64,000 nt of DNA, taken from assembly GCA_012270555.1 (NCBI GenBank), contig JAAXIC010000031.1, positions 121,350 to 185,349 on the forward strand, in the 5' to 3' direction. Below, piece by piece: positions 19,465-27,671 of the stretch. The translations under genes and the position numbers were made by a program. How positions within the stretch are numbered: the stretch's first letter is position 1; each line of letters starts with the position of its first letter. The notes under the pieces are model-generated. The model made no database searches and was not told the DNA's origin. It was given only the letters and a program-made list of their open reading frames with translations. This stretch comes from Chloroflexota bacterium (GTDB lineage: Bacteria > Chloroflexota > UBA11872 > VXOZ01).

Positions 19465-22252
19465 CTAGTCCTGTATAACCCTTGCGAGGCCGGCAGCGAT
19501 CATCGTGTATTCTACACGCACCCCTCTCTTGGACTCTTCCTCTTCAATTCGCTCATCGCGACGCCTCCTGGAGTTTCGTATTTGTGATTGACGCATTCTC
19601 TTGATGCGCTCCTCAGTGATCGGCATGAGTTGACGCCGGAGATTCTCTATATGTGAACTAAAGTGTCGATCCAGGCTGGCAATGCGTACATCGATCAGGG
19701 CATCATTATACTGCCTTTCAGACACTTCTTTGTCTTGCCTAACACTCGACGCATAGTTGTCAGCTGCATCCTGAAGTTGCAGGAATCTGCCCTCTTCAAT
19801 TTCGACTTCTGGCTTTCTATCGCCTTGATCACTTGGTAATTCCTTCAAGAACACCTTGGAATGAAATGGTTGAGGGTCAGAGTCATCAGTGGAGACAAGG
19901 ATAGGGACCAGAGTGCATTGGGGAGTAGCCGAGTGAATATCAAACCGGTAGAGAAAAAAAGCGAAGTCCCCATGGGGTGTCTCAGAACTTCGATCAATCC
20001 ATAGTGCGGTCTTGGGAATCCGGCGACCACCAGTCTTCCTAAAGTGAGCCAGTGCGGCTTGTGCCAACGGATGGTGCAAGGTCACGAACTCAATGTTTCT
20101 TCTCTTGGCCGTTTCAGCATCGAACGTAAGAGTCACTAGACGAGGTTCAGACTGTAGTCGTTTCAGGAATTGCTCATTCAAGGCCCTGTTTCTTTGGCTT
20201 GCCCGCGCACTTTTAACAAAGTAGTTGGCCAATTCGCTTCTTGGATAAACATAGAATGTGCGACCATCTTCACTTTGATCGAGATGCACGTGCGGAAGCG
20301 CGTCCGCAAGGAATGTCTCCACCAACGCACTGACTTCCTGGGCCGACACAAAACGGCCGGAAGATCGTATCTCCTCTATGTCGCGTTGAAGCAAGAAGTC
20401 CTGCCCCAAGAATAGGCCTTGTTCACTTTCGAATGCCTTCTGCTCTTGCCGGTGTCGTTCTAGGATTCGTACCGCGTTTTCGACCTTCAGTCTCTCCTCT
20501 TCTGCGGTTAAGCGTGCCAGGAAGATGTCGCGTGATAACCTGCTCACAACCTTACCGAGGATCGGCTCCAAGTCGCCAATTGAGGATTCGAATAGTCCAA
20601 TTCGGTTGTACAACCGCTCAAGAATACGAGTTTCGATAGTATCTTCGATTACCAGATTGTAAATCCTTATGCGCTTGTGTTGTTGTCCGAATCTATCAAG
20701 CCGGCCGATACGCTGCTCAACTCGCATGGGATTCCACGGTAAGTCATAGTTGAACATTGCGCCGCAGAACTCGAAGTCCAGACCTTCGGCGCCGACTTCT
20801 GTAGACACCATTATCTTCAGGTCGCTGCGATCTCGGAACGCGTCAATCCGGCGTTGTCTTTCTTCTAACGAGATCTGGCCGTGAATAGTCTCTACGGCGA
20901 GTCCTTCGCGAGTTAATCGGTCGAATAGATATTGAGCAGTACCACGGAAGAAAGAGAACACCAGCACTTTACAACTTGGGTCATCATCGAAAAGATGGCT
21001 GAGTGCTTTCTTGAACTCGTCGTACTTTGTGTCCTGGCTACCTAAATTCTCGCAGAGTCCAAGTAGCTCGGTAACTTGCTGACGATCGGTGCCAGTAAGT
21101 TGGCGGGCAGAAACATCATCTTCTCTGATGTCCGGATCTGTCATTTCGAGGTCTAATCCAATACTGGATGACTTGAGTGAGCGCTCAAAGTGTGCCTTTA
21201 GCGCCTGAATGCAACTTGCTGCCTGCCGTTCTCGTATGATTACTGCAAAAATCGAAATCTCGCCTGTGCCTTTTCGCTGGGAGTGCTGCCAGCGAACGAA
21301 GTCATCGACGGCATCGTAGAACTTCCTTTCTTCATGGTTTAGCTTCACTTCAATAGTAAAGGGGCTGCGCTTGGCAGTATCGGCTTGCACATCTCTCTTC
21401 CTAGTACGATTGAACACTCTGGCTAGTGTGTGGAGTTCTAGCAAGTCCCTCTCTACGCTGACTATCTCTTCATTACTTGGAGCGCCTTTTCGCCCTAGAG
21501 ATTTCATGGCTCTGCTATAAGTGGGGTTACTTGGATACATTTTCCCAAAGAGAGTGGACTCTACTGATCTTAATTCACGCCGCGCCCTTGAGAATCTACC
21601 CTGCGAAGCCAATCGAGACGCTCTGCTTATGAACATGTTCGGTCGAAGTCTCTCTTCGAAGTCCTCGAATCGTTCAAAGTCACCGGCGTCAATGAGCCGC
21701 ATCAAATTGAATAAATTCTCATTGCCTGTCTGTAGTGGAGTAGCAGAAAGAAGTACTAGAGCGTGCGATGGCTCGGTTATTGTAGTTGCAAGTGCAAATG
21801 ATTTTGTTGTTGGATTCCTCAGATGATGCGCTTCGTCAATGACTATCAGGTCAAAATCGACAGCTTGTTCATCAAGTTTTCCCCGAAATTCATCTCTGCG
21901 GAGCATCTCCAGCGAGCAAATGCCGCGCAACCTCACCGCATCTCCTAGTTCATATTGGTCATGCAGGAATCGTCTGAAGGATGCGGCATCCAATATGTCG
22001 AATTCTTCATCGAATCGAGAAATAAGCTCGCGGCGCCACTTCTCTCGAAGCCCGGCAGGGCAAATCACCAAGACTCGCTTCAAGTCACGGCGCGCAGATA
22101 GCTCTCTGTAAATCAGGGCTGCTTCTATCGTCTTTCCTAGTCCGACCTCATCCGCTATCAGAATGCGTTGGTTAGGTGACTTGAGGAATCTCAACACCGG
22201 TTTAAATTGGTAGGGATAGTATTCGATACGCGATGCGCCCAGCGAATACAAA
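19465..22252 (-). pseudogene. SNF2/RapA-type helicase, C-terminal part (interrupted by transposon)
   Basis: About 926 residues of a RapA/HepA-like SNF2 ATPase: Walker A DEVGLGKT, DEAH box, LLSATPLQT (motif III), and the helicase C-domain motif QRIGRLDRFGQ. A helical C-terminal extension rich in charged residues follows. There is no proper start: the frame can open only at a TTG (22251), with an in-frame TAA four codons upstream inside the transposon end. Its missing N-terminus is at 27335-27671; joined across one 8-bp target copy the reading frame is exact (DTLY then SLGASRIEYYPYQF), giving about 1,038 residues. It may be a solitary phage-defence helicase (DISARM DrmD-like, for example), but no partner genes are visible. 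Confidence 0.85.
22245..22252. repeat. Target-site duplication, left copy
   Basis: AATACAAA directly outside the left transposon end. It is identical to 27335-27342. Eight bases is the duplication length known for the IS1595 family. Confidence 0.9.
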
Positions 22253-22277
22253 ATAAATTACACCCATTCTAACCAAA
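22253..22277 (+). repeat. Left terminal inverted repeat
   Basis: Begins AT, then ATTACACC at 22257-22264 and TAACCAAA at 22270-22277. Aligned without gaps to the reverse complement of 27310-27334, 19 of 25 positions match. Confidence 0.82.
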
Positions 22278-22286
22278 AAGGAGAAA

Positions 22287-22304
22287 CCCCCGGGATTCCG
22301 GGGG
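22287..22304 (-). terminator. Terminator at left transposon end
   Basis: Seven-bp GC stem (CCCCCGG / CCGGGGG, loop AATC), followed on the minus strand by TTTCTCCTTTTT. It closes the minus-strand transcript of the 150- and 47-residue genes and would insulate the helicase fragment from read-through. Confidence 0.8.
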
Positions 22305-22328
22305 CTTCCTAGGTTATTCGAGTGCTCT

Positions 22329-22472
22329 CTAGTCCTTGCTCTCGCCTCCACTATTGCTTCCGCTACTATCCGAAGTGCCTGTGTCAGCAGGTGGAGTTCT
22401 GTCTGGTGCTGGTGGTGGAGGAGGGGGCTTATCTCCCTTTTCGGTTATTCTTTCTTCTCTCTTGTTCTCCAT
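22329..22472 (-). CDS. Small proline/serine-rich protein (47 aa)
   Basis: Short frame from ATG at 22472. The protein is charged at the N-terminus (MENKREERITEKGDK), has a run of six prolines, then an acidic Ser/Gly tail (SDSSGSNSGGESKD). No membrane segment; probably disordered. It starts 13 bases after the 150-residue membrane protein gene stops and just before a strong terminator, so it is the second gene of a two-gene transcript. Function unknown. Confidence 0.55.
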   Translation of the reverse strand: MENKREERITEKGDKPPPPPPAPDRTPPADTGTSDSSGSNSGGESKD

Positions 22473-22484
22473 GCATCTCACTTT

Positions 22485-22937
22485 CTAGTCTGGAAGATTG
22501 ACCCATGTGAACCATAGCAGAAGCACTGCACCTGCTGCGAATCCAAGTATGGCTATGCTATTCGTAATGTCAACCATTCTACGAATCCATGTCGAAGGCT
22601 CCTTCGCATCGTCCTCATGTTCAAACCTCGTAGCGTTCAGATATACCATCTGCTGACTAACTGAAATCCGGCCAAAAGTAAATGATACCAATGCTGCAAG
22701 CAGACTAAGTGTACAAGAACCCCACGAGCCAAAGACCAGGTGTGTGTGCCCCATATCATCCCACACTCTTTGTAACAACAGAAGCGACAGTCCGACTGTT
22801 CCGCTTGACAGAAAGATGACGGTCCGGTCCCGCATGTGTCCTTGACCAGTATACATCTGGTCCAACACCTTGCGATGATCAAGCAATGCTTGGTCATGAA
22901 GGCCAATAGGGTTAGATGGGTTCTTTGTGATTGCCAT
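22485..22937 (-). CDS. Three-helix membrane protein of the transposon
   Basis: 150 residues with a charged N-terminus (residues 1-36) and three hydrophobic segments at about 39-57, 69-88 and 126-147. A polar loop with EHEDDAKEPSTW lies between the second and third. The ATG has a strong GGAGG site 7 bases upstream. It is divergent from the transposase, with which it shares a 147-base intergenic region. Not recognised; perhaps a passenger with a membrane role, like the other small membrane proteins of this element. Confidence 0.7.
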   Translation of the reverse strand: MAITKNPSNPIGLHDQALLDHRKVLDQMYTGQGHMRDRTVIFLSSGTVGLSLLLLQRVWDDMGHTHLVFGSWGSCTLSLLAALVSFTFGRISVSQQMVYLNATRFEHEDDAKEPSTWIRRMVDITNSIAILGFAAGAVLLLWFTWVNLPD

Positions 22938-23014
22938 TCTAATCCTCCAAATGTACGAATGAGATGTTTATGTAGATTATAGCAAAACAACGCCCCAAAC
23001 AAGCCAAGCCATCC

Positions 23015-23043
23015 TTGACTTTGGTCAATCTCCGTAGTATAAT
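23015..23043 (+). promoter_or_regulatory. Sigma-70 promoter of the transposase
   Basis: TTGACT at 23015-23020, a 17-base spacer, and TATAAT at 23038-23043. An inverted repeat GTAGTAT (23034-23040) / ATACTAC (23055-23061) spans the -10 box and the predicted start, a likely operator for repression of transposition. Confidence 0.78.
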
Positions 23044-23084
23044 ATGAGTATAGAATACTACACAAAAGAGATTAGGTCAAGCCG

Positions 23085-24068
23085 ATGTCAAAGAAAGCGC
23101 CAGGCAAGCACTTCCGCACTGGCATATCGCTCATCGAGTTGTCTCAGATGTTCCCCGACGATGAGACGGCGGAGAAGTGGTTTGAGGAAATGCGCTGGCC
23201 TGACGGTGTAGTCATCTGCCCCTTCTGCGAATCCAAGCGCGTGACCGAGCGCGGCAGTCACCCGAACAACCCCTACCGCTGCAAGGACTGCCGCAAGTTC
23301 TTTTCGGTTAAGACCGGCGGCATCATGCACGCCAGCAAGATTGGCTATCAGAAGTGGGCGTTTGGCATCTACCTCATGACCACAGGCATCAAGGGCACGA
23401 GCAGCATGAAGCTGCACCGCGACCTGAGAATATCGCAGAAAGCCGCTTGGCACATGGCGCATCGCATCCGCGAGGTGTGGAAGGTAGACCATGACAAGTT
23501 CACCGGCACGGTTGAGGTAGACGAGACCTACGTGGGCGGCAAGGCCAAGAACATGACGCAGGAACGCAGAGAGCGATCCGGTGTTGGGAAAGCCGGTTCC
23601 GGCAAGGCTATCGTCGTCGGAGCTAAGGAACGGGAATCTGGCAAAGTGGTGGCAAAGGTGGTCAAAGGACGCACGTACAACCACCTGGTTGGCTTCGTTG
23701 ACAAGAACGTGAAGATGGGCGCCACGGTTTACACGGATGACAACAAGACTTATCGGACCCTGGAAGTTGGGTTCACCCATGAGGTTGTGAAACACAGCGC
23801 CAACGAGTACGCTCGCGGTGACGTGCACACCCAGGGGATTGAATCATTCTGGGCGAACTTCAAGCGCGGCTACCGAGGCGTGTATCACCACATGAGCCCA
23901 AAGCATCTCCAACGCTACGTAAACGAGTTCTCCGGGCGGCATAATGACCGCCCATCTGATACTAAAGTCCAGATGAATAACATAGCGAAAAACATGCTTG
24001 GTAAGCGATTGCGGTACGAGGACTTGATAGCAGACGAGGATAACAAACGTAAAAGGAGAGATGGGTGA
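23085..24068 (+). CDS. IS1595-family (ISXO2-like) transposase
   Basis: 327 residues. An N-terminal zinc ribbon (C45, C48, C66, C69) and WPDGVVICPFC are characteristic of IS1595/ISXO2 transposases. The catalytic domain shows VEVDETYVGG (D146), VYTDDNKTY (D218 or D219) and GIESFWANFKRG (E253 candidate). Length is normal and no frameshift is seen, so the enzyme may be active. The ATG overlaps no other gene and follows a consensus promoter; the TGA overlaps the start of the next gene. Confidence 0.95.
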   Translation: MSKKAPGKHFRTGISLIELSQMFPDDETAEKWFEEMRWPDGVVICPFCESKRVTERGSHPNNPYRCKDCRKFFSVKTGGIMHASKIGYQKWAFGIYLMTTGIKGTSSMKLHRDLRISQKAAWHMAHRIREVWKVDHDKFTGTVEVDETYVGGKAKNMTQERRERSGVGKAGSGKAIVVGAKERESGKVVAKVVKGRTYNHLVGFVDKNVKMGATVYTDDNKTYRTLEVGFTHEVVKHSANEYARGDVHTQGIESFWANFKRGYRGVYHHMSPKHLQRYVNEFSGRHNDRPSDTKVQMNNIAKNMLGKRLRYEDLIADEDNKRKRRDG

Positions 24069-24277
24069 TGAGCGATTCTGAGGCACCTGTTGAACATATC
24101 GCGCCCTTGGACGAGAGACTAGTGCGGCGTGAATTCAGAAGGCTTGGTATAGCTGATGGTGGCAAGTACGCCAACATGTTCAGAGAGGCGATACGAGACG
24201 GTCGGAAAAAGGCCAAGGCTTCAAACGTCAAAGAGCGCAACAAGGAAGATCGCGCTGACGACGCCGAGAGCAGCTAG
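24068..24277 (+). CDS. Small basic protein coupled to the transposase
   Basis: 69 residues from an ATG that shares its A with the transposase TGA (TGATG); a GTG one codon earlier is also possible. It has an acidic N-terminus, then a basic stretch (RRLGIADGGKYANMFREA, RDGRKKAKASNVKERNKED). It is soluble and probably helical. The overlap implies coupled translation, so it may assist or regulate transposition. I do not recognise the family. Confidence 0.6.
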   Translation: MSDSEAPVEHIAPLDERLVRREFRRLGIADGGKYANMFREAIRDGRKKAKASNVKERNKEDRADDAESS

Positions 24278-24291
24278 GCTATCCCAAACGT

Positions 24292-24322
24292 CAGTCTCCC
24301 AAATCACCAACTTGGGAGACTG
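24292..24322. terminator. Hairpin between convergent passenger genes
   Basis: Perfect 11-bp stem CAGTCTCCCAA / TTGGGAGACTG with a 9-nt loop, placed 15 bases after the stop of the 69-residue gene. Only short T-runs follow on either strand, so termination is plausible but not certain. Confidence 0.5.
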
Positions 24323-24439
24323 GCAACTAACCTCCCGCCTTTTAATGGGTAAGGATCGTGAAGGCGCCTCTCAGCCCCTCAGCCGGCCCGGCTACCATCT
24401 CTAGCAAGAGCGAATATATATTCGGGCGTCCTATCCACT

Positions 24440-24646
24440 TTATTTGCCCCTCTCGTCTAAGTTCCTAAGATGCGAGAGTATCTCTTTCAGAAGATTGCGA
24501 ATCTCCTGCAAGGTCACTGTGTCACGGATGGCCGCCTCTTCGGGACTGTTAGGCACGTATATGCCCTTTGAGCGGAGGCGCTCCTCTATCTCGTCGATGG
24601 ATTCTTGACCGCTCACGAAACTGCTACCTTTAGGTTGTGTCGTCAA
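24440..24646 (-). CDS. Small acidic passenger protein (68 aa)
   Basis: Starts at a TTG that overlaps the TGA of the preceding gene (TTGA). The sequence contains an IDEIEERLRSKGIYVP segment and a C-terminal amphipathic helix (TLQEIRNLLKEILSHLRNL), suggesting a coiled-coil or partner-binding protein. The codon pattern is protein-like. Function unknown. Confidence 0.5.
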   Translation of the reverse strand: MTTQPKGSSFVSGQESIDEIEERLRSKGIYVPNSPEEAAIRDTVTLQEIRNLLKEILSHLRNLDERGK

Positions 24647-24954
24647 CTTTTCAGGTTGCGTATTATGGCTTGATTCTTCAATGTTTGTTGTTTTGTTCTT
24701 TGCTCTTTCATTTCTTCAAGCGTTTCTTTCCCGGTCTTAGAAAGACCACCTACTGCAAACATGAACTCTCCATCATTGGTCAAATGAGGCGCGATTATGA
24801 AAAGGTCAGCATTGATGCTATCAGCTATTGCAGTTCGCACTTGGTCAAGTTTGTACTGATAGTGAGCCAGGCTGATTATCTGATGACCGCCTTCAAGCCG
24901 GTCCACAGTTTCAAGCAACTCAATTACAAGGTTGGTATGGTCGTCAGAGTTCAA
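24643..24954 (-). CDS. Passenger protein of unknown function (103 aa)
   Basis: The start is a TTG with AAGGGAG eight bases upstream. There is no membrane segment; the protein is mixed alpha/beta with a hydrophobic strand DLFIIAPHLTNDGEFMFAVGG and a basic helical tail (ETLEEMKEQRTKQQTLKNQ). It is first gene of a two-gene overlap operon with the 68-residue protein. Its 5' end lies close to the divergent RNA-gene promoter at 24979-25007. Not recognised. Confidence 0.55.
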   Translation of the reverse strand: MNSDDHTNLVIELLETVDRLEGGHQIISLAHYQYKLDQVRTAIADSINADLFIIAPHLTNDGEFMFAVGGLSKTGKETLEEMKEQRTKQQTLKNQAIIRNLKS

Positions 24955-24978
24955 GTTAACTACTCCCTTACAGAGCTA

Positions 24979-25007
24979 TTGCCAACTTCCTGTGATTGTG
25001 GTATACT
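24979..25007 (+). promoter_or_regulatory. Sigma-70 promoter of the structured RNA gene
   Basis: TTGCCA at 24979-24984, an exact 17-base spacer, and TATACT at 25002-25007. The predicted start is near 25013-25014. No protein gene follows on this strand before the terminator. Confidence 0.75.
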
Positions 25008-25096
25008 ATGGATGTAGCAACAAGCCAATATAGGGCTTGTTGCGGGCGAACACACGACTGGCTTTTATCTAGCTAAAGATATAGGGTGAGCGAAAA

Positions 25097-25129
25097 ATGC
25101 CATTCCTGGGACATGACTACGTAAAGTAG
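25097..25129 (+). CDS. Possible 10-residue leader ORF inside the structured RNA
   Basis: ATG to TAG encoding MPFLGHDYVK. GGGTGAG lies about 6 bases upstream, a usable ribosome-binding site, but it is buried in the GGGTGAGC/GCTCATTC stem. The stop lies in a small hairpin (CTAC gtaaa GTAG). It could be chance; if real it suggests translation-dependent switching of the RNA fold. Confidence 0.25.
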   Translation: MPFLGHDYVK

Positions 25130-25236
25130 CCACACCAGAATTGGTAAGTCTATGCGTTTCTGCATAGAGACTCCTTTCTAGCTCATTCCTTTTCCATTCT
25201 AGTGTGTTCGCCCGCAACAAATCCTATAGCTCAAAC

Positions 25237-25270
25237 GAAGAGCCAGTCTGAGACTGGCTCTTCGTCTTTT
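25237..25270 (+). terminator. Terminator of the structured RNA gene
   Basis: Perfect 13-bp stem GAAGAGCCAGTCT / AGACTGGCTCTTC with a single-base centre, then GTCTTTT on the plus strand. Confidence 0.85.
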
Positions 25271-25318
25271 GAGTATAGCATACTCCCTTTTACCCCGTGA
25301 GGCAATTGTGGGTGTTTC

Positions 25319-25453
25319 CTAGAACTTCAACCGCCTCGCCCACTCAATGACGGCTTTCCGAAACAGGAAGAGCACGCACACGCTGAAGATCAGTGCAACC
25401 ACGACCATGACCTCGGGGTGTTCCTGTATGTAGAGGATGGCTTGGTCAAACAT
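25319..25453 (-). CDS. Small single-pass membrane protein (44 aa)
   Basis: ATG at 25453 with GGAG 8 bases upstream. A short polar N-terminus (MFDQAILYIQEHPE) is followed by one transmembrane helix (VMVVVALIFSVCVLFLF) and a basic end (RKAVIEWARRLKF). The start overlaps the end of the superinfection-immunity-type gene by 8 bases, so translation is coupled. Probably works at the membrane with that protein; function unknown. Confidence 0.6.
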   Translation of the reverse strand: MFDQAILYIQEHPEVMVVVALIFSVCVLFLFRKAVIEWARRLKF

Positions 25454-25712
25454 TCTCTTTCTCCACATTCTCTTTCTCTTCGCCTTCCTGCTCTTGTCCT
25501 ACTTTTTGCACAACCGTGATATTGGTTTGTGCCTCCGTCCCAAATGCCATTATCAAGGCGATTACCCAGCCAATGATTATCCAGCCGAAGAAGAAGTTGA
25601 CGAGAGCAATCTGAACGGTATTCGACCGTTTTCGATACAGGGCAATGCCAACTGGAATGAAGTACAAACACAGCAAGAATACGAATAGGAGTATGCCGCC
25701 TATGGCTTCCAT
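25446..25712 (-). CDS. Superinfection immunity domain protein
   Basis: 88 residues from the ATG at 25712; the longer frame upstream overlaps the preceding gene and is not protein-like. Two membrane helices flank a conserved core (LYFIPVGIALYRKRSNT, then NFFFGWIIIGWVIALIMAF) matching the T4 Imm-type superinfection immunity family (Pfam Imm_superinfect). The tail is highly acidic with a duplicated EKENV. In phage T4 Imm blocks entry of superinfecting phage DNA; the role of bacterial and transposon members is not established. Third-last position in the secreted-Imm-44aa operon. Confidence 0.75.
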   Translation of the reverse strand: MEAIGGILLFVFLLCLYFIPVGIALYRKRSNTVQIALVNFFFGWIIIGWVIALIMAFGTEAQTNITVVQKVGQEQEGEEKENVEKENV

Positions 25713-25731
25713 GAGGACTGATTCCTTTCTG

Positions 25732-26514
25732 CTAACTGCAAAGTGTCTGCTGCTCGATTTTCGTGAGGTTATCCGAGAACAGCCTGGCTCTATCCAAGTG
25801 CGGGAACCACTCATTGGTTAGTCGCTGCTCGACAAGGCTTGGTTCAAGCGTCGTGGTGATTTCAACATAGACCTTGACACCATTCGTAATGTGAAAGACC
25901 CAAGCAGCGATTGGCGCATGGAACGCCTTACCCTGCCATGTGTCCGGTGTCTCGGCTATGATTATCTCCGCAGTGAAGTTGTAGACTGCGCTTTGGGAAC
26001 TGAGCCGTCTTTGCCATTCGGCAGACCCGTAGAGAGGCACGTTGCCTACCGGCTCAGATGTGATTGCGAACCACTTGTTCAGTTCAGTTTCATACCCTTT
26101 GATTGCTATTTGCATGGCTTGCACATACGCCCGGTCCTCCTGTGGGATGCACGCGATGCTCTCAGTGATGGGGGTATGGTCAACGTAGTCCGCTTCCCAG
26201 AAGTAGCGCTCGGTGTTGAGACGCCGCACAAGGCCATGAGGTCCGTTTATCCAGGTGCGGTAGCCGTCAGTAAAGGCCGTCCAGTTGTCGGCCTTGCGCC
26301 ACGCCATGAGGCCACCTGTGGTCTGCTGGTTGCTGTCGCCTATGGCGTTGTAGCGCTCGTTCTCGAGGCATTCGCCGACAATGTCGTGACCAATAAGGTC
26401 GCGCAGTGCCTTGAAGCCAAGACGGAACTCACAGTCAGCAGCGGCAATGGGAGTTGCCGTTAATAGCAGAAGGACAAAGGCAAAGAAGATCGAACGGGGT
26501 ACAAGCGAACGCAT
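25732..26514 (-). CDS. Secreted passenger protein (260 aa)
   Basis: A clear signal peptide (MRSLVPRSIFFAFVLLLL, cleavage near TPIAAA) precedes a domain with HDIVGECLENERYNAIGDS, TTGGLMAWRKADNWTAFTDG and YRTWINGPHGL, a motif I recall from secreted Chloroflexota proteins of unknown role. A second half (140-260) has no known motif. There are cysteines at C28, C49, C121 and near the C-terminus. The ATG has a strong GAGGAGG 9 bases upstream. It is the first gene of an operon with the Imm-type and 44-residue membrane proteins, 19 bases before the next start. Confidence 0.75.
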   Translation of the reverse strand: MRSLVPRSIFFAFVLLLLTATPIAAADCEFRLGFKALRDLIGHDIVGECLENERYNAIGDSNQQTTGGLMAWRKADNWTAFTDGYRTWINGPHGLVRRLNTERYFWEADYVDHTPITESIACIPQEDRAYVQAMQIAIKGYETELNKWFAITSEPVGNVPLYGSAEWQRRLSSQSAVYNFTAEIIIAETPDTWQGKAFHAPIAAWVFHITNGVKVYVEITTTLEPSLVEQRLTNEWFPHLDRARLFSDNLTKIEQQTLCS

Positions 26515-26556
26515 GAGGGTGCCTCCTCACGGTGAACACGATTAAACAATTGACTA

Positions 26557-26651
26557 GGCACAGTCAGTGTCTTAAGGTGAGCCCGCGAGGAGACCGATGT
26601 AGCATTGTTCAATCGTGTCTCCTGACTCACCTTAAGACTTTCAACTGTGCC
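26557..26651 (-). ncRNA. 5' leader hairpin of the passenger operon
   Basis: A 95-nt nested inverted repeat. The outer stem is GGCACAGT/ACTGTGCC (26557-26564, 26644-26651); the middle is a perfect 13 bp GTCTTAAGGTGAG / CTCACCTTAAGAC (26569-26581, 26626-26638); the inner is GGAGACCGAT with ATCG-T-GTCTCC (26589-26598, 26612-26622). The minus-strand promoter at 26659-26687 would start transcription at about 26652, so the operon RNA begins with this hairpin, 42 bases before the start codon region. It may stabilise the mRNA or act as a regulatory element. Confidence 0.65.
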
Positions 26652-26658
26652 TGCGTTC

Positions 26659-26687
26659 AGTCTATGAGGAAGCCCGCAAAGGGTCAA
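26659..26687 (-). promoter_or_regulatory. Promoter of the secreted-Imm-membrane operon
   Basis: On the minus strand TTGACC (26687-26682), a 17-base spacer, and TAGACT (26664-26659). The predicted start falls at the first base of the leader hairpin. Confidence 0.6.
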
Positions 26688-26730
26688 GGAACTGGAGGAA
26701 ATAACCGAAAAGGTGTCAAGAGGGATTAAG

Positions 26731-26759
26731 TTGACACGGAGAATCTGGACAGGCATACT
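26731..26759 (+). promoter_or_regulatory. Promoter of the tandem structured RNA
   Basis: TTGACA at 26731-26736, a 17-base spacer, and CATACT at 26754-26759. The predicted start is near 26766, ten bases before the first structured unit. It is divergent from the operon promoter at 26659-26687. Confidence 0.55.
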
Positions 26760-26775
26760 AAGAGCAAGCAAAGCC

Positions 26776-26927
26776 GCCAAGTGCAGGACCTTCTGTGGGG
26801 AACATCCCCCACTAGAGGCTTTCGAGCTGCACAAGGCAGAATGCCGGGCAAGAGCCGCTATCAAGCGCAGCGCCTACTGTAGAGAAATCTCTACTAGAGG
26901 TTTGGAAACCTGCGCAAGATAGCGGCT
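26776..26927 (+). ncRNA. Tandem pair of covarying structured RNA units
   Basis: Unit 1 (26776-26837) and unit 2 (26853-26927) share one plan. The basal stem is GTGCAG/CTGCAC in unit 1 and GCGCAG/CTGCGC in unit 2. The arm is GTGGGG/CCCCAC versus GTAGAG/CTCTAC. A small hairpin is GCT-TTCG-AGC versus GTTT-GG-AAAC. An AA/AA symmetric loop lies below the basal stem in both, and unit 2 adds a 10-bp outer stem (AGCCGCTATC / GATAGCGGCT). Paired changes preserve every stem, at least four compensatory pairs, so structure rather than sequence is conserved. An open frame (26713-26922) crosses it but would start upstream of the predicted transcript. Confidence 0.65.
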
Positions 26928-26985
26928 TTGCGACTCCAGTGTATCATCCCTCGGAAAGCAGAGAAACACCCGAAAAGGTGTCAAG

Positions 26986-27013
26986 TGGACTTACGCGTGT
27001 TTTGTGGTATAAT
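26986..27013 (+). promoter_or_regulatory. Promoter of the AT-hook gene
   Basis: TGGACT at 26986-26991, a 16-base spacer, and a perfect TATAAT at 27008-27013. Motif copies lie immediately upstream and 19 bases downstream, which suggests repression. Confidence 0.6.
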
Positions 27014-27096
27014 CAAGACGTGAGTTTTCATCGAAAAGGTGTCAGTAGGATTTATGGCATGGTAGTCTATAGGTACACAGAAAGGATGATGGTGCC

Positions 27097-27285
27097 ATGT
27101 CTAAATCCACCAAGTCAAAGGACGAGGACAAGTCTGAGATTCTCAGCGGTCCTCCCTCCGAGAGGCCCAAGCGCAAGCGCGGGCGACCTCTCAAAGGTCT
27201 TCCGCCCAGGATTCCCGACACTCCTGAGAACGTCGCAAAAGCTGTCGTGAGCGTCCCCCGCGACCGTGTCCCCCGCCCCGAATAA
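27097..27285 (+). CDS. Small AT-hook DNA-binding protein (62 aa)
   Basis: Highly basic centre with a canonical AT-hook, KRKRGRPLKG, flanked by acidic (DEDKSE) and proline-rich segments, then a PPRIPDTPENVAKAVV segment that I recall from other small AT-hook proteins of mobile elements. The ATG follows GAAAGGATG. It is probably the regulator of this block, binding AT-rich minor grooves such as the nearby -10 regions, or a transposition helper near the right end. The role is inferred from motif and position. Confidence 0.68.
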   Translation: MSKSTKSKDEDKSEILSGPPSERPKRKRGRPLKGLPPRIPDTPENVAKAVVSVPRDRVPRPE

Positions 27286-27309
27286 CCAGAGAAAAAACAC
27301 AAGAAAATC

Positions 27310-27334
27310 TTTGGTTATTTTAGGTGTAATCCAT
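27310..27334 (-). repeat. Right terminal inverted repeat
   Basis: Read inward on the minus strand it begins ATGG, then ATTACACC and TAACCAAA at the same spacing as the left end. 19 of 25 positions agree with 22253-22277. Confidence 0.82.
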
Positions 27335-27342
27335 AATACAAA
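27335..27342. repeat. Target-site duplication, right copy
   Basis: AATACAAA, identical to 22245-22252. Collapsing the two copies restores the helicase reading frame. Confidence 0.9.
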
Positions 27343-27671
27343 GTGTCTGACAGCGGGGAGCTAGTTTTGAGCAGGATGAACTCACGTAAGAAGACCTTGT
27401 GCGGCAGGTATTCAAGAGCCGGTCGAGTTGGGACAGCTTCTAGTTCATGCTCGCTTAGAGTTGGTTCGTCGGTAGCACTGAAGAATACCCTATAGTCAAA
27501 TCCTTCAGTACCACGAATTGGCTCTCTAATTATGAGTCCTTCGCGCGCAGGTTCTCTCTTTACCCGTACCCTGTCTCCAGGTTTGAAGAGCGGATTCTTT
27601 CCCTTTGATTGAGGTTGGGGCTTTAGAGTGGGCAATCGACTTCGTTTCTGATTGCTTTTTGTTCGTGCCAT
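27335..27671 (-). pseudogene. SNF2/RapA-type helicase, N-terminal part
   Basis: From the ATG at 27671, 112 helicase codons encode a basic leader and a small beta-domain (FKPGDRVRVKREPAREG, then YRVFFSATDEPTLSEHELE) that in this kind of SNF2 protein precedes the ATPase core. After DTLY the frame continues into the transposon for six codons (YGLHLK) and stops at 27315. The natural continuation, SLGASRIEYYPYQF, is found at the other edge of the transposon, 5.1 kb away. Alone this piece has no catalytic motif. Confidence 0.85.

Follow-up and report, generated by a model that had tools for sequence, protein, structure and literature searches.

The predicted RNA described here, R1 (positions 25013–25270, plus strand, ~258 nt), is carried by an IS1595-family transposon that occupies 22253–27334 (5,082 bp) of the window, that is, of the whole 64-kb stretch of DNA analyzed. 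The element is delimited by the terminal repeats ATAAATTACACC... and ATGGATTACACC..., and an 8-bp target duplication, AATACAAA, borders it on both sides (22245–22252 and 27335–27342). At the corresponding point in the congener G003 a helicase gene runs uninterrupted, representing the empty site. The family assignment is based on an ISXO2-like DDE transposase (23085–24068, plus strand) with profile matches to Pfam PF12762 (1.1e-42) and PF12760 (6e-10), together with the terminal inverted repeats and the 8-bp duplication; the transposase, both kinds of repeat and the empty site bear out the description of the RNA locus as transposon-encoded, given in an earlier note made from this DNA. In the window, the DrmD-like helicase gene is split by the transposon into two minus-strand pieces (19465–22251 and 27315–27671), the C-terminal one of which matches the PADLOC DrmD profile (2.8e-148) from profile position 92 onward, i.e., without the N-terminus.

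Among the other cargo genes of the element, one encodes a superinfection-immunity-like membrane protein (PF14373), and several encode small orphan proteins. An ORF for a short single-span membrane protein (25319–25450, minus strand) lies downstream of the PF14373 gene. A small RGRP (AT-hook-like) protein is encoded at the right end of the transposon (27097–27285, plus strand); at the loci L007 and L008, a similar GRP motif is found in short ORFs downstream of the related transposases. Three plus-strand copies of CGAAAAGGTGTCA (26706–26718, 26971–26983 and 27032–27044), which are possibly regulator boxes, lie around two plus-strand promoters at the same end of the element.

R1 is preceded by the promoter TTGCCA-17-TATACT with an extended −10 (TG) (24979–25007, plus strand), whose sigma-70-like score is the joint best in the 5-kb element, level with that of the transposase promoter. 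Within R1, a perfect 19-bp inverted repeat (25037–25055 and 25202–25220, plus strand) encloses a 146-nt loop and becomes 27 nt long at 93% when extended by 25029–25036 and 25221–25228. No other perfect inverted repeat with a spacer of up to 300 is as long anywhere in the 64-kb window, and when the element was dinucleotide-shuffled 200 times, the maximum reached was 13 bp. A terminator hairpin (25235–25265, plus strand), which would be the 5′ hairpin of a minus-strand transcript, is followed by CTTTTGAG, a weak and short U-tract. The consensus promoter and the perfect closing repeat around ~146 nt, both pointed out in the earlier note, are thus present, as is the terminator, its stem being 15 bp rather than the 13 bp given there; that the locus is an RNA gene appears plausible from its promoter, fold and terminator, although no homologs were found among the sequences searched. 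The plus strand also has a 10-codon ORF with an SD-like GGTGA, to which no weight is given because of its shortness.

The whole 258-nt transcript is predicted to fold with −109.4 kcal/mol (z −9.4). This strong z-score is due to the inverted repeat and the terminator, not to the core; the 146-nt core alone gives a z of only −1.96 on the plus strand and −3.0 on the minus strand, where it is the more stable. An alternative 10-bp hairpin near the 5′ end does exist as had been proposed (25017–25043, plus strand, with arms at 25017–25026 and 25034–25043), but its strength is not similar to that of the closing helix: with this hairpin forced, the fold is 6 kcal/mol worse, and at 37 °C the full-length chain forms it with a probability of 0.0003, compared with 0.9987 for the long helix, which still has a probability of 0.994 at 60 °C. 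The two folds hence do not form a bistable switch at equilibrium, contrary to the earlier suggestion, and only a transient folding path is left of it. In partial-transcript folding the 5′ hairpin is favored only in growing chains shorter than ~210–220 nt; the 3′ arm is then made and the long helix takes its place. Since it is favored only on incomplete chains, we regard the 5′ hairpin as, at most, a transient co-transcriptional intermediate in these folding models. An H-type pseudoknot between 25056–25066 and the terminator arm was set aside, by reasoning, as sterically unlikely.

Searches for relatives of R1 gave a uniformly negative result. The Rfam 15 covariance models have no relevant match at either gathering or permissive thresholds, in keeping with the statement in the earlier note that no known family could be assigned, and DNA similarity searches found nothing in phages, plasmids, E. 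coli, the congeners, the class or ~400 genomes of the phylum; one 19-bp match, located within a radical-SAM-like gene, is due to chance. A covariance model built from the single R1 sequence finds only R1 in 14 genomes, including the congeners and the hosts of related transposases, and no relative at the related transposon loci. Viral pattern scans gave chance matches or none, and transposase relatives from other MAGs showed no match to R1. Perfect inverted repeats of 16–22 bp with 79–88-nt loops do occur near other IS1595 transposases (L010, 3460–3579; L014; L166, 5064–5186), and were rejected as relatives because they have no sequence relation to R1. A retron-like nature, which had also been considered, is opposed by the lack of a reverse transcriptase among the scanned proteins of the element. 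Judged by these comparisons, the R1 locus is an orphan among the genomes and families searched.

Two further structured RNAs are predicted in the same element. R2 (26515–26657, minus strand) forms the leader of the secreted-protein/superinfection-immunity operon, and its covariance model finds R2 itself and leaders in the congeners G004 and G005 and gives another, weak match in G003; it does not find R1. Its members (L007/L176, L017/L177, L182, L180 and L183) precede passenger genes that IS1595-type elements carry in the congeners and, for L183, another secreted-protein gene. In an eight-row alignment, 18 pairs are changed on both sides versus 9.3 in shuffles, and 90% of the cells are paired versus 34–47% in slid controls, counts that lean towards the structure as three of the rows also built the model, one of the eight rows being the complementary strand of R2 itself. 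The helices P1 and P2 covary, several members have a crossing alternative helix, and a conserved SD is faced by a (nearly) invariant anti-SD of the GUCUCCUUGCGG type. With no family match in Rfam, R2 is, to go by its alignment, apparently a conserved, covarying and new translational switch; it is better supported than R1 and may be the better find. R3 (26760–26940, plus strand) consists of two tandem hairpins of ~51–60 nt with co-varying stems and a conserved ACUAGAGG, behind the promoter TTGACA-17-CATACT (fold z −6.3).

At the 3′ end of R1, an operator-like palindrome, AGTATAGCATACT (25272–25284), contains the −10 of a predicted minus-strand promoter, TTGCCT-17-TATGCT (25305–25277), which is only fifth by rank on its strand, and the plus-strand terminator of R1 ends at the predicted start of the minus transcript. 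In the whole 3.18-Mb genome the palindrome AGTATNCTATACT is present exactly twice, each time inside the IS1595-family element. The other copy (23047–23059) is situated between the transposase promoter and the transposase gene, where a divergent minus-strand promoter, TTGACC-17-TATTCT (23080–23052), likewise takes it as the −10. By analogy with the transposase copy, the copy at 25272–25284 probably marks a minus-strand promoter.

A transcript starting there would enter a 30-codon ORF lying opposite R1, inside the core (25073–25165, minus strand). This candidate peptide gene has the SD AAAGGAG five bases ahead of its ATG, a start codon inside a local stem of the minus strand, and the hydrophobic stretch LPILVWLLYVV, the hydrophobicity being moderate (19-residue mean of 1.1, under the typical membrane threshold). 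Only three other small ORF readings in the 64 kb equal it in SD and hydrophobicity, and an ORF of this kind would arise by chance in 258 nt with a probability of ~0.01–0.02, a figure for an ORF chosen after the fact. The homology search for the peptide yielded none, the two weak matches lying in long open frames. Farther downstream is a 103-aa ORF (24643–24954, minus strand; open to 24975, hence 103–110 aa), whose product matches Pfam DUF2513 weakly and below the cut-off (E 0.018) and has no homolog among 400 genomes. What seemed to be a viral homolog of the 110-aa form looks like a phage terminase gene and was discarded, and the AlphaFold/Foldseek analysis was of low confidence (pLDDT 53), uncertain in fold and uninformative. 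The complementarity of R1 to the start regions of the transposase and other element genes is no better than that of shuffles, and so no trans target is evident.

Given these features, it is most likely, if still tentatively so, that R1 is a single-copy structured RNA acting as a cis-encoded antisense RNA of the IS1595-family transposon. The proposal starts from what is directly observed, namely the element, the inverted repeat, the two palindromes and the fold energetics; transcription of either strand, pairing of R1 with the minus transcript, and a regulated product are what we infer from the sequence. In the predicted mechanism, R1 would be made from its strong plus-strand promoter, pass via the transient 5′ hairpin, and settle in one closed form with a 5′–3′ helix of ~26 bp. 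From the operator-controlled minus-strand promoter just past the 3′ end of R1, transcription would yield an RNA exactly complementary to R1, with the R1 terminator hairpin serving as its 5′ hairpin, and this transcript would cross the whole R1 region, including the 30-codon hydrophobic ORF, and reach the DUF2513-like gene. Pairing with R1 may block or destabilize the minus transcript, and may thereby hold down the level of a transposon regulator or of a small membrane-active peptide. We favor this mechanism because the R1 promoter is tied for best, the terminator lies at the minus start and the palindrome covers the minus −10; because an SD and a hydrophobic ORF are present on the minus strand, whose core is more stable; and because the long helix joining both ends is reached via a 5′ intermediate, as in type I toxin mRNAs. 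Counted against it are the lack of homologs in the searches, the fifth-rank minus promoter, the short U-tract, the only moderate hydrophobicity of the ORF, and the uncertain fold of the 110-aa protein.

The evidence may also be read in other ways. R1 might act in trans or by protein binding, the opposite strand having no role and the closed helix being a stability or protein-binding feature; this is possible though less likely, as the RNA unit on the plus strand is complete, having a terminator and a better promoter than the minus strand, and the long closed stem suits protein binding, whereas the core by itself hardly exceeds shuffles in stability, no Rfam family is found even at permissive thresholds, and no relatives were detected among the genomes searched. 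Alternatively, the inverted repeat might be a feature of the DNA, with the RNA fold as its by-product; the repeat would then be either an invertible segment or a nested MITE-like remnant with TATA on its flanks. The near-perfect 27-nt repeats with TATA at their borders, and a z-score that owes its strength to the arms and not to the core, agree with such an origin; it is nonetheless disfavored and, we consider, unlikely, because the arms have no other copy in their own genome or in ~400 genomes of the phylum, unlike those of a MITE, no recombinase occurs among the scanned element proteins, and the loop contains no promoter-like site. We give a similarly low probability to the view that there is no functional RNA at all, only a bidirectional terminator between convergent genes and a decaying repeat. 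The end of a convergent minus-strand operon is close by, the hairpin could act as a terminator in both directions, and conservation is altogether lacking; yet the perfect 19-bp repeat shows no decay, the promoter shares the top score in the element, and the palindrome is placed at the border.

Two narrower versions of the antisense proposal are to be graded separately. As a special case of it, R1 could be the Sib/Ibs-like antisense antitoxin of the opposite 30-residue peptide in a type I toxin–antitoxin pair. The SD AAAGGAG, the stretch LPILVWLLYVV and the start codon in a local stem of the minus strand are in line with this, and the promoters and terminator are so placed that the two predicted RNAs would overlap fully; we find the pair doubtful, however, in view of the frequency with which such an ORF arises by chance and its post hoc choice, a hydrophobicity below that typical of membrane segments, and a peptide without homolog. 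It is improbable, in our estimate, that the whole forms a new, self-contained control module, in which an element-specific operator is common to the promoters of the transposase and of the minus-strand cargo, with an exactly complementary, co-transcriptionally refolding antisense RNA between them. The antisense proposal itself, if true, would place a transposon-borne antisense RNA in the IS1595 family, for which, to our knowledge, none has been described, and one operator would tie cargo control to transposase control. The worth of R1 lies in a clear model open to test, not in a demonstrated system.

The role proposed for R1 is worth comparing with those of known RNAs. With 6S RNA, which the earlier note had named as a possible relative, R1 shares the size range and the long closed stem; it differs in having no match to RF00013 in the window, at a permissive threshold too, or elsewhere in its own genome, and in having a branched core under the 19-bp helix instead of the single stem with a large central bubble that characterizes 6S RNA. 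The RNA-OUT of IS10 is a transposon-encoded antisense RNA with a long stem that overlaps the transposase start. R1 is likewise a transposon-encoded candidate antisense RNA with a long stem, but lies downstream of the transposase gene, at a distance of ~0.9 kb, and has no unusual complementarity to its start region. In the Sib/Ibs type I pairs the antisense RNA covers a whole short hydrophobic ORF, as R1 covers the whole 30-codon hydrophobic ORF, although R1 is longer, has the 19-bp perfect closing repeat, resides on a transposon, and shows no sequence relation to them. The aapA3/IsoA3 type I system passes through transient 5′ hairpins before a helix joining both ends is formed (PMC6733600). 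Compared with hok/Sok and aapA/IsoA, R1 differs in that a convincing toxin ORF is missing from the strand that has the best promoter and the candidate peptide is encoded opposite; there is no sequence relation, nor is any masking of the SD by the closing helix evident. Common to these systems and, by prediction, to R1 are the transient 5′ hairpin followed by a very stable end-joining helix (PMC6733600), the antisense overlap and, possibly here, a small hydrophobic peptide, so that R1 would stand to the type I systems, by analogy, in a relation of resemblance, not of membership.
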